Assembly: GCA_038501625.1 (NCBI GenBank)
Contig: JAZAYU010000169.1
Coordinates: 124,001 to 188,000, forward strand
From: Corbicula japonica
Taxonomy: Eukaryota; Mollusca; Bivalvia; Venerida; Cyrenidae
DNA: 64,000 nucleotides
Direction of reading: 5' to 3'
Below are positions 41,462-62,803 of this stretch, in pieces (positions within the stretch are counted from its first letter, which is position 1; each line of letters starts with the position of its first letter). The notes beneath the pieces were generated by a model. The model was not told the origin of the DNA. It did not search any database and saw only the letters and a program-made list of their open reading frames with translations. The translations under genes were made by a program, and so were the position numbers.

Positions 41462-41653
41462 CTTTTTCAAAGAAGGCGATTGTGAAGAATCCAGAAGAAC
41501 TGAAGGGTTGGATATTTACTACACGTCTTTTAAAGGGAGAAAGGGGGCTTGGCTTTGCTTTGATTGGTGGAAGTCATCCTTATCAAGAATTCTTACAAAT
41601 CACATATATCGCCCAAAACAGTCCAGCGTTTGTGGATGGAAAATTACAAATGG
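41462..41653 (+). CDS. Exon: first PDZ domain, N-terminal half
   Basis: Begins after TTTTACAG and ends ATG G|GTTGGT, phase 1. The peptide has PEELKGWIF, then the carboxylate-binding loop GLGFALIGG, then EFLQITYIAQNSPAFVDGKL. The PxELKG lead-in and EFLQI..PA..DGK pattern are specific to MAGI PDZ domains immediately following the WW region. The domain is completed by the next exon. Upstream coding sequence is not identified; an in-frame ATG at 41434 could start the protein here. Confidence 0.8.
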
Positions 41654-41844
41654 GTTGGTATGATTTGATAATTGATGTCAAAAATTGCTCTTGGTTCATT
41701 GACACTGTGATGAAGTGCACTGCAAACCAATTCATTTTTCTTGGTCAATTTAAAACACAATTTAGGTAGCGAACAAGGTATCAAATAAATGAAAAGGGAA
41801 CTTTGAAAACCCTCAAACACGACATATATGAATAAAAATATAAA

Positions 41845-42140
41845 AAGTGCAATATCCATATCAGAATCGCCACACTTACAAATCACAGCCACCCCAAGCA
41901 GCGAAAAAGGAAAGAGAGCATGTGTTTATGAGCATGTCAAATACAAATAAGACAGCGCAAACAAAACGAAATAGAGAACCCTTGGGGTAACCACCGTTAA
42001 ACGATCAGTGGCAAAATGGTTGCTACTGGGGGTTTAAACCACGTTTTAGGGTACACCAACCTCACACTTGCCTAAACAGGTTCTCATATCAACACACACG
42101 TACAAGTTATCTTTGTGAAACAACTCCAACAGACACCACC
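41845..42140 (-). repeat. Family A repeat, minus strand, in intron 1
   Basis: Inverse landmarks are AATATCCATATCAGAATCGCC, GAGAACCCTTGGGGTAACC and GGGTTTAAACCACGTT. Lies in the first intron of the PDZ-kinase model. Confidence 0.65.
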
Positions 42141-42164
42141 ATCAGCTTAACAATGTTGCATGGA

Positions 42165-42230
42165 GAGAGAGAGAGATTGAGAGAGAGAGAGAGAGAGAGA
42201 GAGAGGAAGGGAGGGAGGGAGAGAGAGCAT
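42165..42230. repeat. (GA)n microsatellite
   Basis: GAGAGA/GGAGGGAGGG run between two minus-strand family A copies. The translated frames across it are low-complexity artefacts. Confidence 0.9.
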
Positions 42231-43440
42231 GTTTTAATAAGCATGTCAATTCAAATAGAACGCCACAGACAATTAACGAGGAAGAGAACATTATGGGATA
42301 CTGCCTTGGAACGGTCAGTTGCAAAACAAATTTCCACTGGGGGTTTAAACCAGGTTCTAGGGTGCACCAACCTCACACGAGCCTGAACAGGTTTTCGTTT
42401 CGCAAAACAACTGTAAGTTGTCTTGGTGAAATTACTCCAACCCACCCATCGGCTCAACAATGTTGCATGCAAGAGCACACAAACTTATAAAACATTAGAA
42501 GCTAATAGCATTGAAAAGCCAAAGGTTAGGTACTCAATGATCTTACCGAGACCAGAGCTCCTGGAGTAAAATCAGCAAGAACACGATAACAGGGATAAAA
42601 GAAACAAATCCAGCTTCTAGGTTCTTTTAAGAAAAGATTTGCCCATAAACCTTCATAAACTCTTAAACCCCTGCCTCCGTCGTGCAACCAAAGAAGTAAG
42701 CATAATGATCAACTGTAGATGGGTTAATCACCAGGCCTGCAGAGCGCATTAAAAATATCAATAAGTAACCTTTCTTTTTAAATTTACAGATGGTTTTTAC
42801 GAAGAAATTAACATTGCATTTTAGCTTCTTAAATTTTTAAATTAAATCACCATAAACAACCGGCTGTGAAATACCATTTTGCAATAATGATTTTAAACTG
42901 CACCTGTTTTTATGAATAAGATTTGGGTATCGGCGATAAAACTTGAAAAAAGTTTTCCTTAATCTGTGATACCGATTACCCTGTTTTTAAAAGTTTTTCT
43001 GTAATGCACAGATAACGTTCATTGAAATCATTTAAATCGTTGCAAGCTCTTGAAAAGCGATCAACATGATCAAGCTGTGAAATATAAACCCCGTAAGATG
43101 ATGCACGAGGAACATCGCCAAAAACGAAATTTACTAGATTAAAATTATCTCTTTTATCATATATTTTAGAAGTGACGTAACCTTTTTCAATGGACAGATT
43201 TACATCAAGAAAGTTTGCTTTCTTTTCTGAAGTGTTCGCTTTATTAATCAGTAGTTCTTTATTATAAATCTTATTAACCAGTGATGGAAAATGGTTCTTA
43301 TCTATATTTGATAAATCATCAAGGTATTTCGAGGTGTTAATAAAAGCTGTAATAATATCATCTTGATGTTCGGTAAAAAGAGATAACATAAAGTCTCTTT
43401 CATAACAGAATAGAAACAGATTAGCAACAAGGGACGCACA
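42225..43440 (-). mobile_element. YLDD-type reverse-transcriptase element, 5'-truncated
   Basis: On the minus strand a 137-codon open frame (43389-42976) encodes an RT C-terminal part, with TEHQDDIITAF, KYLDDL (catalytic YxDD box), FLDVNLSIEKGYVTSKIYDK and YGVYISQLDHVDRFSRACND. The UTR follows (42975-42460), then the family A tail (42460-42225). The best-preserved copy in the window, it defines the family. The YLDD box and the YGVYISQL motif place it apart from the APE LINE at 4600. It may be Penelope-like, but I cannot settle the class without the upstream half and any GIY-YIG domain. Confidence 0.65.
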
Positions 43441-43829
43441 TGTCTTGACAGGTCAATAAAGTATAATTATCATAAGAACCATCTGTGAAGAATGCCCTGA
43501 TTTGGGTTAGTATGAGTGTTATACTTGTCTACTCAAACGTTAACTTTCTATAGATGTAGATTTGTTTAACCAATGTTCTAACTACACCGATCAAACAATT
43601 TTAATTTCTCCGCATAGAATAGGAGAACAGTCTTTGAATTTGAAACATAATAAGATGCATCATTTTTACTTACTTTTCTGAAATTTTCATTGACATTCCT
43701 TCGAGCGTTCTTAAACAAATGACATTTAATCGAGGTGAGGGCAAAACCAAAAGTCACAAATTTGACCATAGCTTTTGTATAGAGGATATACTGAATCCGG
43801 GAATAACTGCTGAAAAATCTTTTGTGTTT

Positions 43830-43955
43830 GTGGCGTCCATTTTGAAACTGATTTTCCTAATACCATGCTCTCTTTTCCTCTCTACTTTTTGGCTGTGTGG
43901 GGAGGCTGTGTATGCTGGATGTGGCCATTCCTGATATGCATATTTCATTTTTTTG
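43830..43955 (+). repeat. Family A tail fragment, plus strand
   Basis: GGCTGTGTGGGGAGGCTGTG followed by GATATGCATATTTCATTTTT, the 3'-terminal part only. Confidence 0.65.
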
Positions 43956-44279
43956 TGTAGCACCTAAACAACCGCATTAGTGCTGAACTGCATACAAATT
44001 ACTTAAAAATCCACTTTAAACAATGAGACTTGAATTTTCGTTTACGCAATATACACATACAACCAACAATTTTGTGACTTTTGGTTTTACCCTTACCTTA
44101 ATTGATGTCAGTGGTTTCTAAATGAATAAATAAAAGTTGATATTTTTTTCACACAAAGAAGTGAAAATGATGTATCTTATTATATTTCAAGTTTGATTTG
44201 TATATCCCAAATCCTTGCTGAGAAATAAAAAAAATATGATCGGTGTAGTTAGAACATTGATTATGTTTATCTTGTTTAG

Positions 44280-44861
44280 GTGACGTTCTCGTTCGTGTCA
44301 ATGGCGAACTCGTTCTTGGTTACACGTTCCAAGACGCAATGCAACTATTCGAAACTATACAACCAGGAGCACAAGTTGACTTAGAAATGTGTAGGGGTTA
44401 CCCTTTACATTTTAAGTCGTATAATCTAAATACTGAGATCCATACAACCATGGATTTTGGTCCCTACGTTACAGATTCAAATACTTCCAATTCAGACTCA
44501 TCTAAGGAAAACATGTTTTATCATCGTGCGTCTTCTCGAAGTTTAAACTCATTACAGAAACATGTTAAATCAGAAAATATGCGTCAAGGATTAGAGCCTT
44601 CAAAGCAAAATCTATACGAAATTTTGACAATATATATAAGGCGAAGTGTCTCAGGATTCGGCTTTAGAGTAACAGATACTGCCTATGGACAGAAAGTGAA
44701 ACAAATAGTAAATCGCTCACGATGTAAAAATCTACAAGAAGGTGATTTTATACAGCAAATAAACAATATAAATGTTGCGGAGTTGAATCATTTACAGGTT
44801 GTTCAAGTTCTGAATGATTGTCCAATAGGAGAAAAGACAAGAATTGTTGTAACGAGAGAAG
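44280..44861 (+). CDS. Exon: end of PDZ1 and complete PDZ2
   Basis: Acceptor CTTGTTTAG, donor GAA G|GTAATT; phase 1 in, phase 1 out. It opens GDVLVRVNGELVLGYTF and ends PDZ1 with AQVDLEMCRGYPL, the MAGI hallmark CRGYPL. At the alpha-B1 position PDZ1 has Phe (TFQDAM) where MAGI has His, so ligand class may differ. After a Ser-rich spacer comes PDZ2: SGFGFRVTD, QKVKQIVNRSRCKNLQEGDFI, INVAELNHLQVVQVL. PDZ2 keeps the alpha-B1 His expected for class I ligands. Reading past the donor reaches a stop at 44891. Confidence 0.9.
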
Positions 44862-44891
44862 GTAATTTACAAATACCGTTAAACATGCAAT

Positions 44892-45824
44892 AAGTACCAA
44901 CCGATGATAAAAAGTGGTCAATGACATGTAGATCCTTACCCGTTACTCAATCATGTGGGAAACTAGAAAAAAGCGGCCTGAAGATCCGCGAGGTCTCATC
45001 AAGTTCTATACCAGTTGCTTTAGATCATTAGATTTTTTACTGAACAGGAGGCGAACAATTTAGGTTCGACTCAGCCTGCACTGATTACATTCTTATCTGG
45101 ATCTATAATGGTTGCACACGGGACTTAAGCCATATTCCGTGAAATAGAGGGTTATATTAGTTTATAAAAAATATAATGATTTACCGCTGCTTTTTGTAGA
45201 TGGCTGTTTAACTTTCACCACGTATATACGGGTTTAATCAAGGGCGAAAAGTGGTGATTAAATTAGCTAGATGTCAACTGGTTGCCTTTTGGCCTGAAAG
45301 TAGCTAATATTCTGAAAACAAACAATGTAGATCCTGATCGAAAGACACGAATGATTTACACTGTTTTCCATAAGATAACATCCTTATTTCATTGACCTTA
45401 ATCAACATTAATTCATTTGCTAAAATCAATCCTTTTTTGAAAATGCTTAGTTGTCAGGCATTGCTTATAATTGTTGTTATTTTCTCGCTCTTAAGAGAAC
45501 ATAAGGATTGCTTTTTCCTTCCGTCGGTTCATCTGTCAATAATTTTTGTTTTGTTTTTGACATTTGTTTTTTCCTCAAACATTCAAATTAAGCCGAGAAA
45601 GAAAAAAATATGAGTTGTTCTCGTTTCTTGATCAACCCTCCTTTTTGCCGACGACCTATATTTTAAATGGCATTATTGTATTGGACTCAAGTTAAAAATT
45701 GCTCAGAATATCGTTTGTGCAAATGTATTTTTCAAGAAAGCAACAAATGACTTATCTAATGTTTTTTCTTTACAATATTATTATGATGTGTATGTTAGTG
45801 AGCTTTTGCATGCATTATTGCTGA
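44892..45824. other. Intron sequence, nothing recognised
   Basis: AT-rich. The 73-codon frame at 45392-45613 is hydrophobic and low-complexity, without a domain. Confidence 0.4.
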
Positions 45825-46135
45825 GTTCATGGATGGGTTGAGTTATTCCACCATGAAAACTTGTACTTTTTGTTAATTTGAGAACCAATTGAAGCAAATG
45901 GAAGGTTGGTGTAACCTAGAACCTGGTTTGAACCCAGAGTGACAAATTGTTATGCCACTGACCGTTACAAGGTGGTAATCCTAAGTATTCTCTTTATCGT
46001 TAATGGTTTGTGGTGTATACTTTGAAACTGACACCTTTATTAACGCATGCTTCCTTCTTCTTTTTACATTTTGACTGATTCGGGAGGCTGTTTTTTGTCT
46101 GGTTGTGGCCATTTCAGATATGCTCATTTCATTTT
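45825..46135 (+). repeat. Family A repeat, long plus-strand copy
   Basis: Includes GAGTTATTCCACCATGAAAA, GTAACCTAGAACCTGGTTT, GACCGTTACAAGG and GATATGCTCATTTCA. Confidence 0.65.
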
Positions 46136-46189
46136 AAAAACAATTTGCAAATGCTGAGCAAAGAACTATAATTTATGAACTGACATACA

Positions 46190-47060
46190 TTTTACTCTAG
46201 ATAGGTTAATCACAAGGCCTGCAGAGCGCTGTAGACTATCACGTTGGTAACCTTTCTTTTTTAATTTACAGAAGGTATTTACGAATAACCGGGGAAAATT
46301 AAAATTGTCTTTTATTTTCATAAGCTAATTAACTAATTCCCCATAAATACAACTGGCTGGGATACCTTTACCTTGTTGCTGATGTTGTTAGTGATTTTAA
46401 ACTGCCCTTGTATTTTTTAATTAAATCTGGGTATCGGTGATAAAACTTACTTAATTTATGATACCGATAACCATGTTTTAAAAGTCTATTTCTGTTATGC
46501 ACAGATAACGTTCATTGAAATCATCAACATCATTGCAAGCTCAAGAAAAGCGAACAAGCTGTGAGATATAAACCCCGTCAGATGTAGCACGCGGAACATC
46601 GCCGTCTAGAAACGGAAAATTTACTCTATTAAAATCGTATATTTTATCATATATTTTAGTAGTAACGTATCCATTTACAAAAGAAAGATTAAGATCAAGA
46701 AAGTTTGTTTGCTTTTCCGATGTGTCGCTTTATTAAGTTGTAGTTCACCAGGGTAAATTTTATTAACACGAGATGGAAAATGGTTATTATCTATATTCAA
46801 CGAATCATCGAGGTGTTGTTAAAAGCTGTAATAATGTCATCTTGATGTTCGGTAGAAAGAAATTACATAAAATCTCTTTCATAACAGAATGAAAACTGAT
46901 CAGCAACAAGGGGTGCACAATTAGTACCCATCGGAATGCCTTTTACTTGTTTATAAATAGAGGTATCGAATCTCACATAAATATTATCCAATAAAATTGT
47001 GGGCTTCTCGATAAGGTCTTGACAGGAATTGTCGAAAAATCTCAATCCTTGTAGTGTTGG
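46190..47060 (-). pseudogene. YLDD-type RT element fragment, decayed
   Basis: The minus-strand frame 47045-46863 encodes an RT segment with KGIPMGTNCAPLVAD and FCYERDFM, the palm region just upstream of the YLDD box. After 46860 the homology to 43389-42976 continues with frameshifts down to about 46480, then the UTR with GCCTGCAGAGCGC to about 46200. Together with 42976-43440 it allows the family's RT order to be read. Confidence 0.65.
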
Positions 47061-47159
47061 AACCTGTTATCTATTTGCTTCGAATATTGGCCATGGTCCC
47101 TCTCCCAAAAAAATATAGATTATTACGGTTTTAATGCTTGTACATATTAACTGTTAACT

Positions 47160-47465
47160 AGTCGATGGGTAGGTTGGAGTTATTTCACCAAGACAACTTG
47201 TACATGATTTGTGAAATGAGAACCTGTTGGGGCAAATGTGAGGTTGGTGCACCCTAGAACCTGGTTTAATCCTCCAGTGGCAATTTGATTTGCCAGTGAA
47301 AATTCCAAGTCGGTAACCCATGGGTTCTCAGTTTTGTTGTTTGTTTGTGGTGTCTTTTTGAACTGATCATTTTATTAACCATGCTCTCTCCCGCTCTCTT
47401 CTTTTTGACGGTGTTGGGAGGCTGTTTGTTCTGAATATGGAAATTACTGATATGTATTTTTCACC
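47160..47465 (+). repeat. Family A repeat, plus strand, just upstream of exon 3
   Basis: Includes GTTGGAGTTATTTCACCAAG, CACCCTAGAACCTGGTTTAA and GGAGGCTGTTTGTTCTG. The open frame from 47437 starts in this repeat, so its first 50 or so residues are not part of the exon. Confidence 0.7.
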
Positions 47466-47590
47466 TTTTTGCAATTGTTGCAGTATTTATTATTGCAAAT
47501 GCTTTTTCTCTGAAAATTTGGGTTTGTTTCTGTATCAGCAGCTGCTTTCTGCTGATGTTCCTGTGCAAAAATATTGCCTTTTCATTTCAG

Positions 47591-48432
47591 TTCCAGATGG
47601 GCTAGATGTCACGTTACTTCCAAAGATTTCACAACGAACGCCCGATCCCCCACAACTTATGACGACGTTCAAGCCACGTCCAATAACACCAACTAGATTT
47701 ACATTAGAGGACGGTTCAAGACAACAAAAAATTGTTTCAAACAGTGCTTCTTTACCTAGAAAACAATTTTCAGGAGATTTGTTAAACAATGATCTGGAAG
47801 AGGATCGGGTTTACATGAATGTAAGATCCCATTCTGGATCTTTAAGACATATCACTAGTTCAAGTTCAGATTTTAGGGTGGGATTGAATTACGGAAAAAA
47901 TGATTGTGTGAAACCAGGTCAGTTTAGAAGTCGGACACCTGAGCCCGCAATAACGCAAAGGACGCAAATACCAGAACCGAACAGGCCCAAAAGCCCTACA
48001 GTCTCCGATATAAGCAGCAAATCTTCGATAAATAGTTTATATGGTCGATTTCCGGTTGGACGTCGTCCGTCAGATTCGTGTAGCAGTTTCCGTGTTCCTG
48101 ATAGAAATTTCAATGACAATTTTCTAATACAAAGCAAGCAAACTGACACATCTAGACGTATAAATGCAACTGTGCCAGAGGATACCGGCCGCTCACACAG
48201 ACAAAGTACGCCTTTTGAATTAGAAGAGCCAGTATCTAGAAAATATACTGAAATGCAATTACCACCAACACGGCCTTCTTGTATTTCATCTAGTCATAAT
48301 TCCTCGGACCCATTACATTATCTGGGTAATAAAGAGGACGACCAGAAATTTATTGAAATAAATATATCATTAAAAGGACAACAAAATGGGTTTGGACTAC
48401 AAATAATTGGTGGAATGGAGATAGGCTCACAG
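47591..48432 (+). CDS. Exon: Ser/Pro-rich linker and start of third PDZ
   Basis: Acceptor TTCATTTCAG, donor CAG|GTATGT; phase 1 in, phase 0 out. About 280 residues. The linker is Ser/Thr/Pro/Arg-rich (for example KPRPITPTRF, SRTPEPAITQRTQ, SPTVSDISSKSSINSLYGRF). It has many potential phosphorylation sites and no fold, as in MAGI linkers. The last 35 residues begin a PDZ: FIEINISLKGQQNGFGLQIIGGMEIGSQ is split by the intron after its carboxylate-binding loop GFGL. The intron position inside a PDZ after the first beta strands is shared with PDZ1. Confidence 0.85.
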
Positions 48433-48504
48433 GTATGTAAAAACGGCACATTCTTAGTTGTAATATTCCTGTTCATTGATGAGAAAACGAGTAACTTTAT
48501 ATTT

Positions 48505-49435
48505 CAGATCTTTTGTTAACCGTATGGCAAAAATAACCAATGACTTCAAAGAAAACCTAGACCAAGATGACCCATATTCGAACTTGTCCGAGAAATCATT
48601 GGGACAAACATCCTGACCAAGTTTCATGACAATCGGAGCAAAAAAGTTACCGCTAGTGTGTTAACAAGAAAATTCTATTTTTAGTAACAGTGACCTAGTT
48701 TTGGGACCCAGTTGACCCATATTCGAACTGTACTGAGAAATCATTGGGACAAACATCCTGACCAAGTTTCATGACAATCGGAGCAAAAATGTGACCGCTA
48801 CAGTGTTAACAAGAAAATTCTATTTTTAGTAAAAGTGACCTAGTTTTTGAACCCAGATGATCCATATTTGAACTCGTCCGAAAAATCATTGGGACAAACA
48901 TACTGACCAAGTTTCATGACAATCGGAGCAAAAATGTAACCACTAGAGTGTTAACAAGAAAAAATTACTTTTAGCAACAGTGACCTAGTTTTTGGACCCA
49001 GATGACCCATATTCAAATTCCTCTGAGAAATCATCGGGACAAACATCCCGACCAAGTTTCATGACAATCGGAGCAAAAATGTGACCTCTACAGTGTTTAC
49101 AAACAAATTCTATTTTTAGTAACAGGGACCTAGTTTTTAGACCCAGATGACCCATATTCGAACTATTCAAAGAAATAATTGGGACAAACATCCTGACCAA
49201 GTTTCATGACAATGGGAGCAAAAATGTGACCGCTAGAGTGTTAACCTGAAAATTCTGTTTTTAGTAACAGGGACCTAGTATTTGGACCCAGATGACCCAT
49301 ATTCGAACTCTTCCGAGAAATCATTGGGACAAACATCCTGACCAAGTTTCATGACAATCAGAGCAAAAATGTGACCACTAGAGTGTTAACGAACTAAGTG
49401 TGGACGGACGACAGACGACGGACGACGGACATTCA
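48505..49435. repeat. Six-unit tandem array, 145-bp period, in intron 3
   Basis: CTGACCAAGTTTCATGACAA recurs at about 48613, 48758, 48903, 49049, 49193 and 49338, spaced 145-146 bp. It ends in GGACGGACGACAGACGACGG and a TCACCTGAGC-type short inverted motif. The units are clearly related to those at 25720-28205. Confidence 0.9.
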
Positions 49436-49589
49436 TCGATCCTAATAGCTCACCCTGAGCCAGCTCAGGTGAGCTAAAAATGTGCATTTTATTTTCCCAG
49501 TAAAGGTCTTGGATGTAAAAATAACAATCCCTCATATTCAATCATTGCTGTTACCAGTTACGTACTGATTTGGCATCATTTTATATATC

Positions 49590-49870
49590 AAAACTTGTTC
49601 GCTTCGCTAGAGCTTGTAATGATGTCAATGATTTCAATGAACGTGATCTTCAAAAGAAAAACGTTTAAAACAAGGTTATCAGTATCACAAAGTAAGGAAA
49701 ACCTTTTGCAAATTTTATAGCCGATACTTGGATTTAATTTATAAATACATTTGCAGTTTAAAAAAAAATTGAAATATGCATATCAGGAATTGCCACATTC
49801 AGAAAACAACAGCCTCCCCACACAGTCAAGAAGAAGAGAGGGGGAGAGAGCATGGTTAATAAAATAATCA
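49590..49870. pseudogene. RT tail remnant (+) followed by family A fragment (-)
   Basis: CGCTAGAGCTTGTAATGATG encodes the RFARACND motif of the YLDD-type RT, on the plus strand to about 49745. Then an inverse family A fragment runs to about 49870. Confidence 0.55.
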
Positions 49871-50294
49871 GTTTAAAAAGCACTATTGCAAGAAGGTTTT
49901 TCACATCAAGTTTCTTTTACATTTGGCATTCAGGGGGCATACATGTTTTACAAACATCTCTCTTTTGTTCTTTTTCATGCATGTTTATGGTTTCTATCAT
50001 AATGAAATTTAAAAAAACAAGTTTAAACATGTACTTTTCATCTATGAAGTGTATCATTTGGGTCAAGTTTGCCTGCACGCTTGTGGATGTTGTTAGGCAG
50101 ACTTTTCACACAATAATGTAAGGGATGGCCTTGCATAAATGTATTTAACTTCTCTGATTTCTATCGTACTCTAGTAGTAACCCATTAAAATATTAAATAA
50201 TATAAATAAAATGCATTGATGAATAAATGCGGCCTCATTTACCCCAATCGTCTGGGATGGATTAAAATTGTTGTGTTTATTGGTGTTGATTTTA

Positions 50295-50445
50295 AATTTA
50301 GCACATCCCGGGCTAGACGGCGTGGGCAGTAATATGCATTTCCATTACTGCCCATTAACAGGCTCAATAAAACCGAGCCTACAAATATTTTCATATTTAT
50401 TGCTTCGGTGGCTTCGCTTCGAAAGTTCCCTTTTCATCTATTGTT
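50295..50445 (+). repeat. Family B twin-hairpin repeat, best-preserved copy
   Basis: Contains GGGCAGTAAT-ATGCATTTCC-ATTACTGCCC, then AGGCTCAATAAAACCGAGCCT and TTCCCTTTTCATCTA. Both stems are perfect here. Confidence 0.8.
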
Positions 50446-50796
50446 ATTATTAGTATTCTATTGTGTGCGAATATAATCTGAGAATAACACGTTTGTGATG
50501 ATTAGTTGTATCCACTTTTAAGCTTCTTGTCAGGATTTACACTCTTCGATATCCATATAATGAACTCACTATTATATATTTATTTCTGAAATATATTTCT
50601 TTAAAAAATGAGTGCACTGGCCTTTGTGACGATAATGATTTTCTAATAATACTTACATCGAATAGCGTTCATAAAGTGGGTAAAGGATTAAAGCAAATAA
50701 ATTTTACCTGTTTGAAAGATAAAGCCATGCTGATGTTAATGGTAAATGATGTAAAATGTGAGTTGGTATTTTGATATAAGTTAAATGTATGTATAG

Positions 50797-50989
50797 GTTG
50801 TTGTAGCCTACATTGTCCCTGGTGGTGCCGCTGATCAAGATGGTCGATTGCGAGCTGGCGACGAGATCTTGTTCTGTGACGGTGACTGTGTAATCAATGC
50901 TTCTCACCACAAAGTTGTCATCCTCATGAATACTGCAGCGGCAAGGGGTCAAGTGTCACTAGGTATACGACGTACAGTTCCGTATACAG
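50797..50989 (+). CDS. Exon: remainder of third PDZ
   Basis: Acceptor GTATGTATAG, donor ACA G|GTACTG; phase 0 in, phase 1 out. It encodes VVVAYIVPGGAADQDGRLRA, then GDEILFCDGD and INASHHKVVILM, ending VSLGIRRTVPYT. The pattern (HIVPxGAADxDGRLRxGDE, then SHxxVVxLM, then VRR) is that of the MAGI PDZ following the long linker. The alpha-B1 His is kept. Without splicing the frame reads five more codons (GTGI) to a stop at 51001, with AATAAA at 51029. Confidence 0.9.
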
Positions 50990-51028
50990 GTACTGGTATA
51001 TAGCTTTCATTTAGCTTTCGACTAGAAT

Positions 51029-51034
51029 AATAAA
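51029..51034 (+). terminator. Possible polyadenylation signal for a PDZ-only transcript
   Basis: AATAAA 26 bp after the read-through stop. In AT-rich intron sequence this can be chance. Confidence 0.25.
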
Positions 51035-51162
51035 ACATTGATTGAAATAATGTAATATATTTATCCGCATTGTTCACTTTCTTATTAAACGTATTCAAAT
51101 ATAAAAACAGAAAAATTTAATGTTGTCTTGAGGTTTCAAGTCAAGAAATATAGAATATTAGG

Positions 51163-51287
51163 TTACTGTCTTACCAAGCTTGAATTTATTAGGCGAGTAG
51201 GAGAAAAATATACAGGGCGAGGCTCTGCCGAGCCCGGTATATTTTTCGGAGACGAGCCTAATAAATTCAAGCTTGGTAAGACAGTAA
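51163..51287. repeat. 125-bp hairpin element between PDZ and kinase exons
   Basis: Perfect 32-bp inverted arms (51163-51194 and 51256-51287). Between them an imperfect stem continues around GAGGCTCTGCCGAGCC. Typical of hairpin MITEs. It lies wholly in the intron separating the scaffold and kinase halves. Confidence 0.9.
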
Positions 51288-51367
51288 TATACCTGTTATT
51301 CAACTTTCCGGAATGAGGTGGTTTATTGAGAAAACTAAAGGTGTTGATGTTCAACTATTGATTTTAG

Positions 51368-51622
51368 ATACCAGCATTGTCAGACAGGGGATGGAAGTTA
51401 TCACACCAAGACCCAAAGAAATCACTTTGCAATTCACAGAACTATCCATCAAATTATCATTGAAAAAGAGGCGGAAACTACTTGGACACAGGTCTCCGAA
51501 GGAAGCATGTTTCTATGACGGACGGCTGATTTTACTTTCAAACAAAGACAAGAACAATATTAAAAGAGCGTGTAGGCCAACAAATGAGATTGGTAAAGGA
51601 GGTTTCGGCACAGTCTACAAAC
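51368..51622 (+). CDS. Exon: basic linker and kinase Gly-rich loop
   Basis: Acceptor TTGATTTTAG, donor AAA C|GTAAAT; phase 1 in, phase 1 out. It encodes about 85 residues: a Lys/Arg-rich linker (LSLKKRRKLLGHRSPKEA) and then NEIGKGGFGTVYK, the glycine-rich ATP loop. The frame is open upstream to an ATG at 51313, so this could also be a first exon of a separate kinase gene. The acceptor's pyrimidine tract is weak. Confidence 0.8.
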
Positions 51623-52096: not shown

Positions 52097-52176
52097 AATC
52101 AAATAATGGGTTTGGAATGCAAATCGCAATTAAGAAAATTACAGCAAAGTCTGAAGAACTGGATTCTGCGAGAAAA
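52097..52176 (+). CDS. Exon: kinase beta-3 strand (catalytic Lys)
   Basis: Acceptor CATTATAG, donor AAA|GTAAGT; phase 1 in, phase 0 out. The 27 residues include MQIAIKKITA; its first Lys fits the VAIK lysine that anchors ATP phosphates, paired with the Glu in the next exon. Confidence 0.85.
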
Positions 52177-52575: not shown

Positions 52576-52594
52576 TGTCAATTCAAAGGGAAAT

Positions 52595-53004: not shown

Positions 53005-53070
53005 CAAAATGGCAATTTGTTTTGCCAGCGACCGTTCCAAGGCGGTTTCTCATGTTTGTGTCTGTTTTGA
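53005..53070 (+). repeat. Family A fragment, plus strand
   Basis: TTTGTTTTGCCAGCGACCGT and CCAAGGCGGT. Confidence 0.6.
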
Positions 53071-53627: not shown

Positions 53628-53701
53628 GAAATGTTTGCATCAAGAATATTACATCCATTTATTTTACCGCTTCTTGCAACCTTTGAAGAAGACCGGAAAA
53701 A
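53628..53701 (+). CDS. Exon: kinase alpha-C helix
   Basis: Acceptor ATGTTTCAG, donor AA|GTTAGT; phase 0 in, phase 2 out. It encodes EMFASRILHPFILPLLATFE. The Glu lies eight residues before HP, the spacing of the alpha-C Glu that pairs with the beta-3 Lys. HPFILPLL matches the HPNIVxLL turn of subdomain IV. Confidence 0.85.
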
Positions 53702-54062
53702 GTTAGTTAGATCTACGTTTTGTTATTTAATAAAGTTGTCTATCTTTTATTCTTACATTTTGATACGTAAAATCAATGAGTATTTTATATAAGTCAACCG
53801 ATATAAACAAGAGGTCAAATTAGTGTAACTATACTTTTTCTAAAAAACATAAATCAGTTTTTAAGATATTGGCTCAACATGCATACTATATTTAATGAAC
53901 TCTTCAATTGGTTGGATAGTTCAAGCATACGCGGACATACGACTTGCACGTGTATAAGCTCACTTTAAAAAGTGATAACTTACCCGTCATTTATCACATG
54001 GACTCAAAACATAAACCAATACAGCAAAGAAAGCTAATAAACACATTTACTATTATCTTCAG

Positions 54063-54248
54063 TTTGAGTTCTGACATATTCTTTATATCTCCGTACTGTG
54101 CGAATGGGGACCTGAACACAGTTCTGAAAGGATGCAAAAAAAATCCTATCATTTCTAATACTTGGATGAATCAGACGCAGAGGATCCGCATTTGTCTACA
54201 GATAGCCCTGGCGATACAGTACTTGCATACACCGGTGCCAAATGTTAG
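54063..54248 (+). CDS. Exon: kinase hinge and alpha-E helix
   Basis: Acceptor TATCTTCAG, donor AG|GTATAT; phase 2 in, phase 2 out. It encodes DIFFISPYCANGDLNTVL (hinge), then RIRICLQIALAIQYLHT (alpha-E). NGDL and the RxxIxxxIAxxLxYLH pattern are typical of TKL/RLK-Pelle kinases. By alignment to the IRAK hinge the gatekeeper is Ser rather than the Tyr characteristic of IRAKs. Confidence 0.85.
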
Positions 54249-54689
54249 GTATATCTGACTTTTGTATTTGTTTGTTTTAAGTATCAACTCACAACCACGT
54301 AAGATACATGTATAAACATTATTATGTGAAGTACTGGATTTATGTACTTTAGCTATGGCTCCATTCAGAATCATGGCAGATTTAAATGCCTCATACAGAA
54401 ACACATATGAGTAGATTGAAATTCCGTGACATAAAATGTCTATTGTTAAAGTCTGTAAGATAATGTAATCGACTTATACTGATTACCTGTTTTATCGCAG
54501 TTTTCAGCCAAGTAACCACCATTGCTCTTAGCTTCGGGCTGCTTTGTACATTCCTTACGTAGCAGAACTGCTTTGGATTCCGACAAGGTCCTCTATGAAT
54601 ATGTTATGGATTTGAAATGATTTACAGCCGTAGTTTTTTTCGAAATTTGACTTGACCGTGTAAAAGCTTGTCTGGTGTCACTTTAGGTT

Positions 54690-54780
54690 AATCCACCACG
54701 ACAAATTGAAAATATCTAGCTCGGTTTGATTGAGCCTGTTCGTGGGCAGTCATGGAAATGCATATTACTTTCCATCAACA
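54690..54780 (-). repeat. Family B partial copy, minus strand
   Basis: AGCTCGGTTTGATTGAGCCT stem followed by GGGCAGTCAT and ATGCATATTACT. Confidence 0.6.
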
Positions 54781-54979
54781 TATTCACATTCAATGCAAAG
54801 AAAAATTAGTCTAAATACTCCGCATTGCAGTTGGTATTATAAACTTCTTTTTAAAGGGTATATTATGCAGTAGACAGAATGTTTTGAAGCTGTTTGAATC
54901 CTACCAGGCGCCGATATGTTTACGATCTTTTAAGTACACGACACAAGTCTGATTTCATTACAAATCATCTATATTTTTA

Positions 54980-55150
54980 TATGAAATGATATTGCCTCTA
55001 CCTGGGAGCGAACCCACACCGTCACGGCGACAGCTTATAGCATTCAATTTCGACAACGCAACCGATCGAGCTAACCGGAGCAACCCAAAGAAAGGTTGGT
55101 CGGATAGCCCTGATATACGTTATCATCACTCTTTGACATCGGTTACGGAT
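54980..55150 (-). repeat. tRNA-related SINE-like repeat, copy 2
   Basis: On the minus strand, GGTTAGCTCGATCGG (A-box-like, about 55062-55076) and GGTTCGCTCCC (B-box-like, 55004-55014), spaced as in a tRNA gene but without a foldable anticodon arm that I can identify. Co-linear with 52595-52770. Confidence 0.6.
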
Positions 55151-55449
55151 TACATGTATAAAAACTAATTTTCAGATTTCCAGAGGCTCATAGAGGCCCA
55201 TAGAGAGCACTCAAACAATATCTCCACAACAATATAATTCAAAATTTCAACCAAATTCAGCGTAAAGCATTCTGGCATTGCCCTCATACACAGCTGTATA
55301 AAAATGATCCCGGGGTCAACCGATCCCTGTCATGAGGCTTATAAGCTAGCTTCTTTAAAACATTTTTTAAAAACGAAACTGGGATTACCAACATATTTTA
55401 CTGGAACAATACTTTAACAATTAATAATTAATATAACCAATATTGTTAA

Positions 55450-55670
55450 AAAGTGAAATATGCAGATCAGGAATCGCCGCACTCAGACAACACATCCTCC
55501 CAACTCAGCGAAAAAAAGAGAGGAAAAGATAGCATGTGTTTTAACAATATCACGTCAAATAAGACACCAAAAACAATTAACGAAAAAGAGAACCCTTGAG
55601 GTTTTTGCCTTGGAACGATCAGTGGCAAAACAAATTGCCATTGGGGAAATAAACAGATTCTAGGATTCAC
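55450..55670 (-). repeat. Family A repeat, minus strand
   Basis: ATATGCAGATCAGGAATCGCC, GAGAACCCTTGAGG, CTTGGAACGATCAGTGGC. Confidence 0.65.
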
Positions 55671-55859
55671 CAGCCTCATAATTACCCTAATATTAAGCAG
55701 GGATTAACTTTATTTTATGGCGATAGGGAAAGCTTTCTACAACCGCTAGATTTAAAAATATTTCACAATAACATTGCTTGGAAGACCATCTCTAAACTTC
55801 TTCAACCATGACGTTTCATTGACAAAAATGGCAAACAGGTGTTTCCATGGTTTTGCTTT

Positions 55860-55955
55860 CCATTATTGCCCAGGATCAGACTCAATCAAATCGAGACTGC
55901 AATATTTTCATATTTGTAGTGTTCGGCTTTCAAAGTTCCCTTTTCATCTATTTCA
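55860..55955 (+). repeat. Family B partial copy
   Basis: TGCAATATTTTCATATTTG and AAAGTTCCCTTTTCATCTA. Confidence 0.65.
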
Positions 55956-56254
55956 CACTGCATGTGACTATTTCATCGGACGGAAATTAATTAGCTGTTT
56001 CCAAACCTATTCACTCTGTTTTTGCAAGGCTGCGGAAGTGATTGTTAAACTTATTTCTCGTATTATTAGTGCCATGGAAATTTCTTAAAAATAGCATTCA
56101 GCCATTTATATGCGAACGTATTGTTACTGTATATAAATAAAGACGGTTATACTGTACTTTCGCATATAAGTAGCAATATGTACCTAGAATAATTTCTTTT
56201 TAGTGCGATTGCCAAAATTATTAAAATTATAGATGAAAGTTAATTTTTAAAAAA

Positions 56255-56790
56255 ATACGCATATCTGGAATTGCCACATTCAGAAAACACAGTCAGTATG
56301 ATGACAAGTGATCCATCAAATTAAATGAAAATGTAAAATATGCATATAAGGAATCGCCACATTCAGAAAAATGCCTCCACACAGTGAGGAAGAAGAGAGA
56401 TTGAGAGAGCATGAGAGCATGGTTATTCAAATTAGTTTCAAAAAAGACATCACAAACAATTAACAAAAATGAGAACCCGATGGGTTACCGCCTTGGAACG
56501 GTCGGTGGCAAATCAAATTGCCACTGGGGGTTTAAACCAGGTTCTAGGGTGGACAAATCTCACACTTGCCCCAACAGATTCTCAAATCACAAAAAAGTAC
56601 AAGTTGTCTTGGTGAAACAACTCCAACCCACCCATCGGCTCAACAATGTTGCATGAAAAAGCACAAAAACATGTAAAACATAAGAAGCTAAAAGCATTTC
56701 AAAGCCGAAGGGCGGGTGCTCAATGATCTTACCGAGACCAGAGCTCCTGGAGTAAAATCAGTAAGAACACGATGACATGGATGAAGGTTC
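56255..56790 (-). repeat. Family A tail plus part of the RT-element UTR, minus strand
   Basis: Family A core at 56335-56660, followed by UTR sequence (ATGATCTTACCGAGACCAGA) shared with 42530 and 39000. This again ties family A to the RT element. Confidence 0.65.
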
Positions 56791-57339
56791 AGTCCGATGA
56801 ATCATCCACAGACTACTCATTTAACCATTGTTCTGACATTATTAGATACATTTTTTTCCAGATTTGAACGGAATAAGGTAAAAACTTCTGGTAAACTTGA
56901 AACGGTTTTGTTTGTTGTTTGTAGGTACAGACTGAATAACGTTTAAATTCCCGAACTCTCCCGGGCTCTCTTTCTTTTAAAATGCATTTGAAATATCTAA
57001 GTTAAATTTTGCACGTTCTTCACTTCGGAGGATTTATTCTTTACTTAAACAATAAAAACAGCAGAACTAAATGCATTGTAATAATGTTCGAATGTTCTTG
57101 GAGAATTCATTTTTATCAGCCCTGTGCCGTATAGCAATTCTGCAACATGAAAATAATCCAAATCAGCATGACACAATAAAGAATCGTGATATGATGTTTT
57201 CAGTTCTTTACTTCATGCTATATATTGAGATGAGCTAAGTTTAAACTAATGTTTTGATCGATTTTGGTGTTTTCTGCTGCTCGCCCACTTATTCATTATT
57301 AAGATGTTTTTGTGCTTTTGCGTGCAACTTTTTGAGCTG
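56791..57339. other. Intron sequence, nothing recognised
   Basis: No exon, ORF with a domain, or clear repeat. Confidence 0.35.
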
Positions 57340-57512
57340 AATGCTGGGTTGGAGTTATTTCACCAAGACAACTTGTACTTGTGTATTGATATGAGAACCG
57401 TTGTGGCAAGTGTGAGGTTCGTGCACCCTAGAACCTGGTGAAAACCCCCAGTGGCAATTTAATTCGCCAAAGACCGTTCCAAGGAGGTAACCCCGCGGAT
57501 TCTCATTTTTAA

Positions 57513-58375
57513 CCAGCGAAGCTGGTTTTACTAATCACAATTCTGAAATCGGTATCAAACCAACTGGCAAACGGCGATTTACGCATTTCAGAGTAATCAG
57601 AGTAAGTAAAGTAGTCCCCAAGTTTCCTGTTACGTGTTAAAGTTGGTATTAACTACGTCATGTTGATAGGATAAAACCTGTACGGTGCATCAATGGTCAA
57701 ATTCATCTGTACGACAGTTTGATTAAATGTAAAATCGGTGCGGTTCATATTTCTAGGACTTGATCGGTGCGGTGCAACAATGGTCAAACATTGTCCGTGT
57801 CCGCGATTTTTCACAATGAAGGAAACAATTATATATTTCTTATTTCAAATAACTGCATAAACTTTCCCATCGATGGGGTCTCACTTTTTATATCATTTTT
57901 TCGTGTTCATTATGTCTTTGGGATGTCAGTACACAGATTTCACTATTATAATTTTTTTCTTAAAACCCTTTACTCAATATATACGCCTTTCATCACATAG
58001 GTTACCAGTTCAGGTCCCGATCAGCTGGCACAATAGTGCCATCTGATCTGGATCTAAAATTTGTGATTACTGGTCAGAAAAAAATGATCATAAAAGCGAA
58101 CAGTTTAAATCCTAATCAGATCGCACAGATGTGCCAGCTGATATGGATCTAAACTGTTCGCACAAGCTATGAAGGTATATCTATGGAGTAAAGGGTTAAA
58201 AGAAGCCTTCATCCAGATAAAACATGGAAACCCTTATTTCCACTATCATTTAGACAAGAGGAAGTTCTTTGCAAGTGAACCAAGTTTTTTTGCTTTTTCG
58301 TAAATGGATACATGTATGAGAATCATGGCACTGGTTATTCTCAATAAGCAAAATCGCTTCGCTGGTTTTCTGTAC
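57513..58375. mobile_element. Small TIR element with AACCAGCGAAGC ends
   Basis: AACCAGCGAAGC at 57514 and its inverse GCTTCGCTGGTT near 58350-58363. The interior holds tandem GGTGCGGTGCAACAATGGTC-type repeats (57680-57790) and an imperfect palindrome at 58015-58170 (GCCATCTGATCTGGATCTAAA against inverse copies). It interrupts a family A copy, so it is younger than that copy. Confidence 0.5.
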
Positions 58376-58437
58376 TTTCAGTACTTTGATTATTAACTGT
58401 TTGTGATGTCTGTTTTGAAGCTAATGATTTTTAAACC

Positions 58438-58642
<205 letters not shown>

Positions 58643-58734
58643 CTGTCTTCTCTTCTTCATGGCTGTGTGGGTAGGATGTTTTTCATATGTGGCAATTCCT
58701 GATATGCATATTTCACCTTTTTGTACCTGTTTGT

Positions 58735-58860
58735 TCTTATGAGAACCTGTCAGGGAAAATGTGCGGTTGGTACACCCTAGAATCTGGTTTAAGCATACAG
58801 TGTCTAATTGTGTTGCAACCGACCGTCCGAAGGCAGTAACCCCTTAGTTTTTTTTTCTTT
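58735..58860 (+). repeat. Second partial family A copy
   Basis: CACCCTAGAATCTGGTTTAA and CCGACCGTCCGAAGGCAGTA. Confidence 0.55.
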
Positions 58861-59149
58861 CTTTATTTTGGTGTTTAATTTTAAATATAATTTTTAAAAA
58901 ATTTTTTTATTTCTTTGTCTCCCTTCCTTTTCGTTGCGTAAGGATTTTTTTTGGAGGGGGGGGATTGTAAATTTCGATATGCCTTTTTTCACATTACCAT
59001 GGATTTCTTAAATGGAATGTTCCGTTTTGTGAACGTTTAAGCCTTTGGCGACGGATCTTGTTTTTAAGATGTTGTATTGAAATGATATATCTGTTTGATG
59101 AGTTTTGCTAAGACAGGTTCTTTCAAGTTGATGCAAAATTGCGTTTCAG

Positions 59150-59349
59150 AAGTGCTATTCTACATAAAGACATCAGTTCGGTTAACATTGTTTTGGACAA
59201 ACATCTAAACGCACGCTTAATAGACTTTGGTCTAGCAAGAGAGAACGATGACATAACATCAAGATGTTCAGGGAAAATTCCCTATCAGCATCCAGATATT
59301 GGCCGATATCCAGCATCTCCTCTCTGGGACATTTACAGTTTCGGTGTTG
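59150..59349 (+). CDS. Exon: kinase catalytic loop, DFG and activation segment
   Basis: Acceptor GCGTTTCAG, donor GTT G|GTAAGT; phase 2 in, phase 1 out. It encodes ILHKDISSVNIVLD (catalytic Asp and Asn present; HRD reads HKD and the usual D-x-K Lys is Ser), ARLIDFGLARE (metal-binding DFG), CSGKIPYQHPDIG (in place of the APE motif) and SPLWDIYSFGVG (subdomain IX Asp). All residues needed for catalysis by the classical scheme are there except the loop Lys. The DISS loop is more familiar from plant receptor kinases than from animal IRAKs. Confidence 0.9.
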
Positions 59350-60300
59350 GTAAGTAAGTGCTGAATGTAAGACAAATAATGTATTTTAATAAGAATTTTA
59401 AGTTTTGTTTTTCAGATATATTCTATAATAAATTAATAAGAGTTACAGGTACAGCACATCCGCCCGTCCGCCCTCCAGAATGTTTGTGTTTTTGCCCGAA
59501 TACCTCATGAACTATCTGGGGTTTCTTTTAACATTTAACCGATGATTTCATAGATAATCAATCATGATGTTAATATGGTCGAAAATATTTTTCCTGCAAC
59601 AATTTTCCTATAATATGGTTTTGGTTTTTTGTTCATTTCAGTCATAACATTGTGTGCCAAGAACTCTTCATTTCTGGCTGATTTCTTTCAAACTTGAGCG
59701 GATAATTAGTAAGATGGTGGAGAGTGTATAAAAACATGTTTCACTGCAATCATTTTACCGGAGTAATGGTCCTTTTTTATTTCAAAAACAATTTTATGGC
59801 ATGATGTCAACATGTATATATTTTATAAAATGACTTATAATTGTGGGATTGTAGTATACTGGACAAATATGACCCCCTTTAAAACACGTTTTCATCAAGA
59901 TTGTTCTGAAATTCAAAACCCTATCAAGTTCAAAACATTTTATATCAACATTTAAAACATTCAGATACATACATGATGTTTCTTTTCAACATGTAGCAAA
60001 ACTAACACTTGATAGCAGTGTATCAAGAACGTTTAAAATCAGTGCTGTTTGTAGAAATGGATGAAAAGTCGGCAAAACACCTTACTCAATTGAATGTTTC
60101 AGAAAGGCAACATTTACAAAATTTTGTTTTGTTGACACTTTTGAACTGCTGGAAACAAAACAACTCGTTTACATGAGAGTAAAAGTAATATTGAAAATTA
60201 GGTGTTCGTTGTTCTAGTCATGACTTTCAGATTTTTTCAGTCATCTGTCAGACACACTGTGCTTTCACAGTTTTTCTATATCAAGTCCACAGAAACTAGA
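59350..60300. other. Intron sequence, nothing recognised
   Basis: AT-rich, no domain-bearing frame. Confidence 0.35.
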
Positions 60301-60395
60301 CAGCTTGTACAGTAATAAGCACTTCCATTACTACTCACGAACATTCTCCATCAAACTGTCCCTGCAATATTTTACTTGGGGCGGTCATTTGCAAT
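60300..60395 (+). repeat. Family B decayed copy
   Basis: ACAGTAATAAGCACTTCCATTACT and TGCAATATTTTA. Confidence 0.45.
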
Positions 60396-60569
60396 GCGAT
60401 ATAGACCAGTGAGGGGATAAACGTGCGCAACCTACCGCCTATCAGTTTTTGAATTTTAATAACAAAAAACAAATGAATTTAAATGTATTTTAAGTAATAT
60501 CAAATTTAACAAATAGCAATTTGAAAGTGTAATACGTTCTTTATATGGTTTTAAAAGTGACCGTAAAAT

Positions 60570-61150
60570 ACTATATGAAAAATAAACTTTTAAGTGGAAT
60601 GTTAACGTTTGTATGGCGAGGTAAAGTATGCATATAAATATACTGAGCCAAAATGAAACATTCACAAGAATAACATGGAAAACTCATATTACAACTCACA
60701 TTAGTAATACCAGTGAATGCAAATATCTGGAGGAATTTGATCACCAATATGTTTATCTTAGAAGTTGGCTGTTCAGTATATATCGGTTTTAAAAAAAGAA
60801 ACAATGAAAACAATTACGTGGTTGTGGAAAATTAAGCGTTGAATTTTGTTATGATTTCAATTAAAAGGGAGGTTATTTGCTAAAATGGATATTTAAGTAA
60901 CTGTAGCTTATTTCTTTGCATCGGTGGGCTTCAAAGATTGTGTTGTTCATTCTTTACTTGCCATAAACTTAATTTGACAGTCAAATAATCTGTTTGAGAC
61001 ATTTTTGTGTTAAAAATGATTGATTTAATCATTATTAAGGAAAGTGGAGATAACATTGACCTCTGTGTAAGAATAAAAATATCTTCCCGCTTCATCAAAT
61101 GTCCAGATATTTGCAAATACCACACATTAAATGAAAAATGAAATATATCA
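60570..61150 (+). repeat. Dispersed repeat shared with 3650-4210
   Basis: Co-linear partner of the left-hand copy, same orientation. Shares GTGAATGCAAATAT and CAGATATTTGCAAATACCACA. Confidence 0.75.
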
Positions 61151-61204
61151 TCACTAATCAAAATATTTGAACTATAAATCTGTTTTCATTTTTGTTCAGT
61201 ATAA

Positions 61205-61376
61205 ATTGTATAGCCACTGACCGTTCCAAGAAGATAACCCAAAAGGTTCTCGTTTTCGTTAATTGTTTGTGGTGTCTTATTTAAAATAGAGCTTCTTATA
61301 AACCAATGCTCTTCTTTTTTGCTGCGTGGAGAGGCTGCGATTTCTCGGTGTGGCAATTCCTGATGTGCATATTTCG
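61205..61376 (+). repeat. Family A repeat, plus strand
   Basis: CCACTGACCGTTCCAAGAAG, GTTAATTGTTTGTGGTGTCT, GTGGCAATTCCTGATGTGC. Confidence 0.7.
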
Positions 61377-61984
61377 GTTGGGGACTGGGATTCCCATATC
61401 TTATACATTTTTGGTGGTGGCAGCGAAGTAACAATACTTTCACCTTTACAGTTTCTTTATTTAAAAACATATCAACAACAAATGTCTCCAGAGGGTGGAT
61501 GTGGGCCTTTTCTTCACAACCTCCTGGCGTCAAAACTTAATATACTTCCGTACATTCAATCAGTATTGTTATCAGTTATGTCCTCTGAAGGTCGTTGAGC
61601 ACGATACTTAAGTTACTGGTAATACTACTTCTATAATCTCTTTTTTAATATTTCGGTCAGTTTATAGTGTCCCAGCCGATATAGATTTGGATACTGTTCA
61701 ATCACTCCTAGGATATACTTTCTGCTTTTTAAATTTTGCATTTGGCGTTGTCTGCGATATGCAGGATTTATGTTCTCAGATCCCCTGTCGAAATTCGATT
61801 CGGAATAGTTCCACCCATTGTTTTCTTGTTTAGGGCAAACCCATTTTTAATCTGTGGACCATACGCCGCTGAACATGATATGGTATTAATCTGAAAATAC
61901 CGCATTGAAAGTTTCATGTTCACTGCAATATGCACACCCTCGTTTGGGATGGATCTAAACTATACTGTTTACTTGTGTAAATAT

Positions 61985-62120
61985 TTAATTGCGCTCAACT
62001 CGGGGCTATGCGGTGGTAATATGCATTTGCATTACTGCCCATTAACAAAGTCAATAAAACCGAGCTGCAATATTTTCATAGTTTACGTGTTCGGTGGCTT
62101 TCAAAACCCCTTTTTCATGT
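61985..62120 (+). repeat. Family B copy
   Basis: ATTGCGCTCAACTCGGGGCT, GGTAATATGCATTTGCATTACTGCCC and GCAATATTTTCATAG. Confidence 0.7.
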
Positions 62121-62234
62121 TTACTATTAACATGTTTTTACTTGTCCTATTTACTTAATATTTGCAATATTTTATGCATAAACAAATCCATCAGATGCAA
62201 TAAGAAAGATATCGCCTTTCTGGCTATTATTGAA

Positions 62235-62480
62235 AAAAAAGTGAAAAATGCGAATCAGGAATGGCCAAATCCAGCAAACACAGCCTCCATACACAGCCAA
62301 AAAGTAGAGAGAGAAATAGAGCATGGTATGACAATAATCCGTTTCAATATGGATGCCGCCAACAAATAACGAAAGTGAGAACCCGAGGGGATACCGCCTT
62401 GGAACGGTCAGTGGCAAAATAAGCCTGCAATATTTTCATACTTGTCGTGTTAGGTGGCTTTTAAAGTTCTCATTTCGTCT
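62235..62480 (-). repeat. Family A (minus) abutting a family B scrap (plus)
   Basis: Inverse family A (CGAATCAGGAATGGCC to CTTGGAACGGTCAGTGGC) runs to 62417. Then a plus-strand family B end starts (AAGCCTGCAATATTTTCATA). Confidence 0.6.
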
Positions 62481-62705
62481 TGTATTTCATAGAGCCTTAT
62501 TAATTTTGTGGTCGACAGGACCAGCTTAAGTGTTATCAATAATGTTTTTTTTTCATAATGATGACTAATTAAGCATTGCAAATGTTACCTTAGAACAAAA
62601 TCACTAAGTATAATGAAGTTACTGCATCTTTAAAGAGATCCGTTATCTAGTTATAAAACGACTTATATCTATACGGAAATTCTACGTTTTATGTTTAATT
62701 TGCAG

Positions 62706-62803
62706 TTATCCGAGAATTGCTGACAAATCTGCCGCCTTACGGGAGCGAAGGTGTAGGCCTATATCTCAAACACATGCCGGCTTCTGTTATTGAAGAAAAC
62801 TTG
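62706..62803 (+). CDS. Exon: kinase subdomain IX-X
   Basis: Acceptor TTTGCAG, donor TTG|GTAAAA; phase 1 in, phase 0 out. Joined to the previous exon it completes SFGVVIRELLTNLPPYG, close to the SFGVVLLExxTGLPP motif of IRAK/RLK kinases, then GLYLKHMPASVIEENL. The remaining subdomain XI Arg and the C-terminus must lie to the right of the window. Confidence 0.85.

Follow-up and report, generated by a model that had tools for sequence, protein, structure and literature searches.

A likely predicted fusion of MAGI-type PDZ domains with a kinase–caspase-fold gene in the bivalve Corbicula japonica

Introduction

Does a locus of the bivalve Corbicula japonica encode a single protein in which PDZ domains of the scaffold protein MAGI stand in front of an IRAK-like protein kinase? 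The window, that is, the whole stretch of 64,000 nucleotides analysed here, comprises bases 124001-188000 of contig C169 (JAZAYU010000169.1) of the 1.07-Gb genome (assembly GCA_038501625.1); C-numbers denote contigs of this genome. A first-pass annotation had proposed that ten exons in the window read from three MAGI-type PDZ domains into a tyrosine kinase-like (TKL) kinase. We found that a copy of the MAGI exons for PDZ1-PDZ3 is located 378 bp upstream of the first recognisable kinase exon of a kinase–caspase-fold gene, onto which it is probably spliced. The predicted protein of ~1,350 residues would have three PDZ domains where many relatives have Death, CARD, Roc-COR or other modules. The exons and domains that had been annotated were thus confirmed, and the fusion is a likely, predicted one; the annotation had missed that the PDZ block duplicates part of a MAGI gene, that the kinase is followed by a cysteine cluster and then by a predicted caspase fold, and that the kinase has bivalve relatives with variable N-termini.

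Exons and domains of the locus

All ten exons of the window (Table 1) are preceded by AG and followed by GT, and when joined they give a single open frame of 900 amino acids, with the borders and phases originally annotated. In this 900-residue part, Pfam detected PDZ in three stretches (E = 6.1e-24) and Pkinase (E = 1.2e-27). The spliced frame contains ELKG, CRGYPL and GAADQDGRLRAGDE in the PDZ part, and GKGGFG (glycine loop), AIKK, HKD, DFG and SFGVVIRELLT, together with the alpha-C Glu, in the kinase part. The PDZ1 stretch matched a MAGI-1 structure (1.7e-29) and the kinase part matched IRAK4 (9e-19), so that both the MAGI-type and the IRAK-like assignment hold; plant receptor-like kinases and RIPK2 are the other close solved kinases. 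The kinase is closest to IRAK4 and plant receptor-like kinases, not to kinases of the LIMK or MAST type, and no LIM domain was found at E 0.001 in the 900-residue part. A chance origin of the PDZ and kinase signals was dismissed because of these two structural matches and the stop-free PDZ block in the simulation described below. A long CT microsatellite (58441-58639) is located in an intron of the kinase part.

The gene had been thought to end at 62803, which is an end set by the limit of the window. Six further exons follow downstream in the same frame: a kinase C-lobe exon, two cysteine-cluster exons, two caspase-like exons and, finally, an exon with the C-terminal segment of the family described below. 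A script found the phases to agree through exon 15, and manual reading extends the agreement into exon 16. The C-lobe exon beyond the window is weak (profile E = 0.26) but is the best match and is correct in phase. Counted from the first PDZ exon, the predicted protein has ~1,354 residues. N gaps flank the gene model, and the sequence between them is continuous.

The kinase Lys, Glu, HKD and DFG and the protease His and Cys are kept in the downstream exons, and the cysteine cluster, CxxC...H..NC...CxxCEKNxFLNPVxCYxCG, is present in a three-row alignment. An AlphaFold (AF2) model of the main caspase-like exon, with a mean predicted local distance difference test score (pLDDT) of 79, was compared with the PDB. 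The Geobacter protein GSU0716 ranked first (E = 1.6e-4); next came yeast-type metacaspases (5.3e-4), plant asparaginyl ligases/legumains (1.1e-3) and caspase-7 (7e-3). An E-value of 0.001 was reached by six matches, and template modelling (TM) scores were about 0.4-0.5. The Pfam C14 match (E = 3.1e-4, 20.9 bits) is just below the cut-off of 21.4. A caspase fold is predicted for this exon. In a 17-row family alignment, in which row 1 is the caspase exon of the C169 gene alone, SCHG and DRC are kept, with an invariant active-site Cys and a nearly invariant His, and HKD, DFG, the beta-3 Lys and the alpha-C Glu are nearly invariant in the 16 rows that include the kinase. The canonical caspase motif QACxG was not found in the exon; DRCFA stands in its place.

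Table 1. Exons and associated features of the predicted gene (window coordinates unless a contig is given)
Feature	Position	Strand	Remarks
MAGI PDZ1 first part, exon	41462..41653	+	Phase-1 acceptor; frame and borders; 75-77% nucleotide identity to C20 parent exon, counted with the adjoining 43 and 25 bp of intron
PDZ1 second part and PDZ2, exon	44280..44861	+	Frame, borders, Pfam, structure match, parent alignment
Linker and start of PDZ3, exon	47591..48432	+	9 indels versus parent, each a multiple of 3
Remainder of PDZ3, exon	50797..50989	+	88% nucleotide identity to parent exon; homology continues to 51035
Putative 378-bp intron between PDZ part and kinase part	50990..51367	+	Gap-free
Palindromic insertion resembling a miniature inverted-repeat transposable element (MITE), within putative intron	51148..51287	.	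Inverted arms 51163-51223/51227-51287
Exon K1: lead-in (DGRL motif) and kinase glycine loop	51368..51622	+	C223 paralogue 79% identical
Exon K2: beta-3 Lys	52097..52176	+	Frame, borders, paralogue comparison
Exon K3: alpha-C Glu	53628..53701	+	Frame, borders, paralogue comparison
Exon K4: hinge and helix E region	54063..54248	+	Frame, borders, tblastn
Exon K5: HKD, DFG, SFGV	59150..59349	+	Frame, borders, tblastn
Exon K6: C-lobe (RELLTNLPPYG)	62706..62803	+	Frame and borders
Gene-model exons past the window	C169:200239-200370, 202147-202228, 203862-203999, 208720-208852, 209051-209781, 212732-212880		

A bivalve kinase family with a variable N-terminus

A search with the kinase-to-caspase part as the query (7990 candidates scored) gave 1055 matches, and 19 bivalve proteins are among the best 120 of them. 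At their N-termini, Pfam found Death in six (three of which also have CARD), Roc/COR in two, Ig and FN3 in one, PLAT in one and nothing in nine; PDZ was found in none of the 19. The N-terminal modules were rechecked in seven bivalve family proteins; P0069 has DUF4559 and P0071 has CARD and Death. The eleven best matches have 36-42% identity and cover 89-98% of the query, and best identities to protein entries were 55% or less in three protein searches. The nearest named kinase relatives are from the bivalves Mercenaria, Ruditapes, Mya and Mactra. P0097 of Mercenaria, P0099, P0102 and P0104 of Ruditapes, P0110 and P0114 of Mya and P0071 of Mactra share with the C169 gene the kinase, the cysteine cluster, the caspase-like domain and the C-terminal AWVxRxPL. 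The family differs from the C169 gene at the N-terminus, where its members have Death, CARD, Roc-COR, Ig/FN3, PLAT, DUF4559 or no module, and the listed matches lack PDZ. These comparisons indicate that the kinase belongs to a bivalve family with a varying N-terminal module.

In the same genome, 104 exon-level kinase matches were listed, some of them to other kinases (126 of 160 candidates scored). Neither Death nor CARD had a match among those listed on C169, and a Death-type module is not universal in the family. An ATG exon with a phase-1 donor site lies 3.5 kb upstream of the closest kinase paralogue (L051 3522-3758; C223:678522-678758). Its peptide resembles a winged-helix or z-alpha domain and could be another N-terminal module; a z-alpha domain was not confirmed there (E = 0.11, below cut-off), and the z-alpha search of the genome listed only C10.

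Origin of the PDZ block

MAGI is a MAGUK with inverted domains. In a genome search with the full MAGI protein P0001 (31 of 188 candidates scored), the matches listed covered residues 1-330 on C469 and residues 305-333 and most of 367-1483 on C20, by exons 58-96% (mostly 75-93%) identical to P0001. On C169, only four MAGI exons were among the matches listed, corresponding to residues 431-1162. A fuller MAGI gene is thus present elsewhere in the same genome, on C20/C469. Part of that gene is doubled with matching exons on C20 (4770001-4834000) and C469; both contigs contain residues 367-704 and appear to be alleles kept separate in the assembly.

The order PDZ1, PDZ2, PDZ3, the exon borders, the phases and CRGYPL 3' of PDZ1 are the same in the C169 copy as in MAGI (P0001 and the C20/C469 gene). 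The two differ in what surrounds this block: at the C169 locus no guanylate-kinase, WW, PDZ4 or PDZ5 exons were found, and a kinase–caspase-fold gene comes next. Guanylate-kinase and WW exons were absent from the window and 60 kb on either side by tblastn with P0001 and P0003; the genome search listed them on C469/C20, with two stray WW-region matches on C393 and C72. PDZ4 and PDZ5 were listed on C20, and neither was found on C169 by the same tblastn or by the genome search.

C20 matches C169 at the DNA level in 41283-41370, 41419-41678, 44251-44951, 47585-48441 and 50790-51035. Intron sequence aligns around exons 1 and 2 and 3' of exon 4, and at exon 3 only 6-9 bp past the exon. Since the similarity extends into introns, the block was copied from the MAGI PDZ1-PDZ3 exons at the DNA level; a retrocopy was ruled out, as the block contains introns, stretches of which can still be aligned. 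Within the last PDZ exon, which is 88% identical to its parent (others 73-78%), a 46-bp run (50893-50938) is identical in copy and parent, possibly through gene conversion. In PDZ1 of the copy, the helix-B His of GYTHQD, a residue that sets the ligand class, is replaced by Phe (GYTFQD), which predicts an altered ligand preference.

Over 600 codons aligned with the C20 parent, protein identity is 63.5%, nonsynonymous divergence (dN) 0.222, synonymous divergence (dS) 0.570 and their ratio 0.39; by part, dN/dS is 0.18 in PDZ1, 0.22 in PDZ2, 0.27 in PDZ3 and 0.54 in the linker. No stop codon occurs in 602 codons of the PDZ block. Neutral simulation gave 16.3 stops on average and no stop-free run in 2000, and at half the divergence 8.9 stops on average and no stop-free run in 5000. 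All 13 exon indels between copy and parent are multiples of three. Changed sites were counted at 439 positions that are identical in two further MAGI proteins: the copy is altered at 48 of 212 PDZ positions and at 105 of 227 linker positions (p = 2.7e-7), so the rate of change at PDZ sites is half that at linker sites. The lack of stops, the indels in threes and the slower change of PDZ sites show that the block has been retained as protein.

The join between the PDZ part and the kinase part

The first-pass annotation regarded the join 50989|51368 as its only doubtful one. It is indeed the weakest point of the gene model, but the parent donor and the paralogue give it more support than was then estimated. 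The donor at 50989 is the parent's own phase-1 donor, CAG|GTATTG in MAGI aligning with CAG|GTACTG in the copy. The acceptor TTGATTYTAG|ATACC is common to 51368 and the closest kinase paralogue (C223:682372). The BLAST alignment with this paralogue starts 10 bp 5' of the acceptor; identity is 9/10 just 5' of the border, 18/23 in the first exon bases and 77-83% deeper in the exon, and upstream it falls to 8/17 in 51341-51357 and, in a forced alignment, to 20/34 in 51301-51340. The exon border at 51368 is shared with the C223 paralogue. Once on C1013 and twice on C223, a Death-domain exon precedes kinase exons of the same strand by 4-9 kb; phase-1 donor sites were read at the matching place in all three, two of which are near-identical. 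The PDZ block begins and finishes in phase 1, and it therefore fits into a phase-1 intron with the frame unshifted. From these features, we consider a joint PDZ–kinase transcript spliced 50989|51368 probable.

Several points weigh against such a transcript. Support for the splice is confined to genomic and paralogue sequence. The phase match by itself is a one-in-three event. The acceptor scores 4.0 bits, low to middle for this gene (1.1-9.7), and 10.5% of the 3378 window AGs that were scored reach this value. PDZ and this kinase were not found in one protein among 96 matches, the best 120 of 1055 or 86 matches in the three protein searches, which scored only candidates sharing words with the query (7063, 7990 and 3490, respectively); the architecture that the annotation had proposed to look for in other bivalves did not appear. 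Furthermore, 153 of the 439 sites differ in the copy and 16 in the parent, which places nearly all change on the copy's side, and if synonymous change is split evenly between the two, the copy's own dN/dS is arithmetically estimated at ~0.7, implying relaxed constraint. The copy is thus relaxed, yet kept as protein.

Other counts against the join are those that would suit a pair of adjacent genes, of which the first would be a MAGI copy truncated at 51003 and the second an independent kinase–caspase-like gene starting from ATG 51313 or 51391. Both ATGs are in frame; an unspliced PDZ transcript would stop at 51001-51003, with AATAAA at 51029-51034, which the parent MAGI lacks at the matching place; the C223 paralogue has an ATG four codons 5' of its acceptor; and some relatives, such as P0100 and P0074, have short N-termini. 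However, the closest paralogue lacks ATG 51391, and the region around ATG 51313 is not covered by any BLAST alignment; 5' of ATG 51391, conservation equals that of the rest of the exon and ends at the acceptor. Only 224 bp lie between the stop at 51003 and 51368 once the 140-bp insertion is left out, leaving little room for a promoter and a first exon, and the copy retains the donor of its parent. We judge two genes to be unlikely, though the strongest competitor of the fusion.

It is less probable still that exon 51368 is joined to another exon farther upstream that escaped detection, such as a Death or winged-helix exon that has diverged, and that the splice skips the PDZ copy, which would be its own gene or an alternative first part. 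The ATG exon of the C223 paralogue, described above with its z-alpha-like match and phase-1 donor, speaks for such an arrangement. However, a search of the window and the 60 kb upstream of it gave no convincing match to either this exon or the C1013 Death exon (best E about 3), and no Death, CARD or z-alpha match was listed on C169.

An assembly artefact or a decaying pseudogene is very improbable. The exact 4.2-kb duplication flanking the upstream N gap (32175-32674) shows that the assembly is imperfect nearby, and the copy evolves fast; however, the gene model lies between gaps and contains no N, its exons have no stop or frameshift, and the PDZ folds are constrained.

As for the putative intron itself, no other full-length match to 50990-51367, which would be a second haplotype of the junction, was found among 40 of 179 candidates scored. 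The MITE-like insertion in it is likely young and recently active, because 37 further copies were listed with 93-99% identity. A rule that every kinase paralogue has a phase-1 acceptor was unusable and was dropped because AGs are frequent: of nine other loci, two (L057 and L060) have the AG with the richest pyrimidine tract in a phase other than 1, and L053 and L058 show ties between a phase-1 AG and AGs in other phases. An origin of the K1 lead-in from open reading frame 1 of a long interspersed element (LINE) was also rejected, since it had only a by-eye match to L009:1073-1348 and the lead-in is conserved across the kinase family.

Other features of the window

An exact 4,243-bp direct repeat (27540-31782 and 32675-36917) lies on either side of the 500-N gap and is apparently an erroneous duplication made where scaffolds were joined. 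A 2-kb inverted repeat (6803-8815 and 11050-13062), 99% complementary, has long open reading frames with a CxxCxxxGHxxxxC zinc-knuckle-like motif, gag-like by eye. Tandem arrays of a 145-bp unit are found in 25983-27542 (10.9 copies) and 48560-49390 (5.7 copies), the latter within the intron preceding the last PDZ exon.

Discussion

Exon shuffling probably supplied a kinase–caspase-like protein with the PDZ1-3 part of MAGI as its N-terminal end. The proposed event is a recombination between two introns of phase 1, by which the PDZ block would have taken the place of an earlier N-terminal module. IRAK-like kinases are activated by clustering through Death domains. In the fusion, the PDZ domains might instead bind the C-terminal tails of membrane or junction proteins and thereby cluster the kinase; autophosphorylation within the cluster could then switch on the caspase-like domain of the same chain, and the output would be innate-immune or cell-death signalling local to the site of the cluster. 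We tentatively propose, as a possibility well short of a firm conclusion, that scaffold PDZ domains replace a death-fold adaptor, that any membrane protein with a suitable C-terminal tail would directly trigger kinase and caspase-like signalling without an adaptor, and that the family is a plug-in trigger system.

If the fusion is true, it would clearly exemplify how exon shuffling via phase-1 introns rewires immune or cell-death signalling, with a protein-kept PDZ block of a junction scaffold standing where relatives have Death-domain adaptors. A kinase and a caspase-like domain in one chain would also allow one to ask how a kinase controls a protease within the same molecule.

By sequence, the closest solved kinases to the C169 kinase are those of IRAK4, plant receptor-like kinases and RIPK2. 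IRAK has a Death domain and no protease, whereas the predicted C169 protein has PDZ domains and a predicted caspase fold, with no N-terminal Death domain found. LIMK and MAST resemble it in having PDZ and kinase in one chain; they belong to other kinase groups and have a single PDZ and no caspase fold. Among the titles and abstracts listed in searches of open-licence PubMed Central papers, none concerned a MAGI–kinase fusion or the bivalve kinase–caspase-like family. In amphioxus, death-caspase and TNFR-caspase hybrids join receptor and caspase (PMC2575513); a term search found neither 'PDZ' nor 'IRAK' in that text. The amphioxus hybrids, like the predicted C169 protein, bring immune signalling steps into a single protein via domain shuffling. 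In bivalves, immune proteins that combine a constant with a variable region are described as having expanded (PMC8195603). The amphioxus and bivalve cases are parallels, not precedents.

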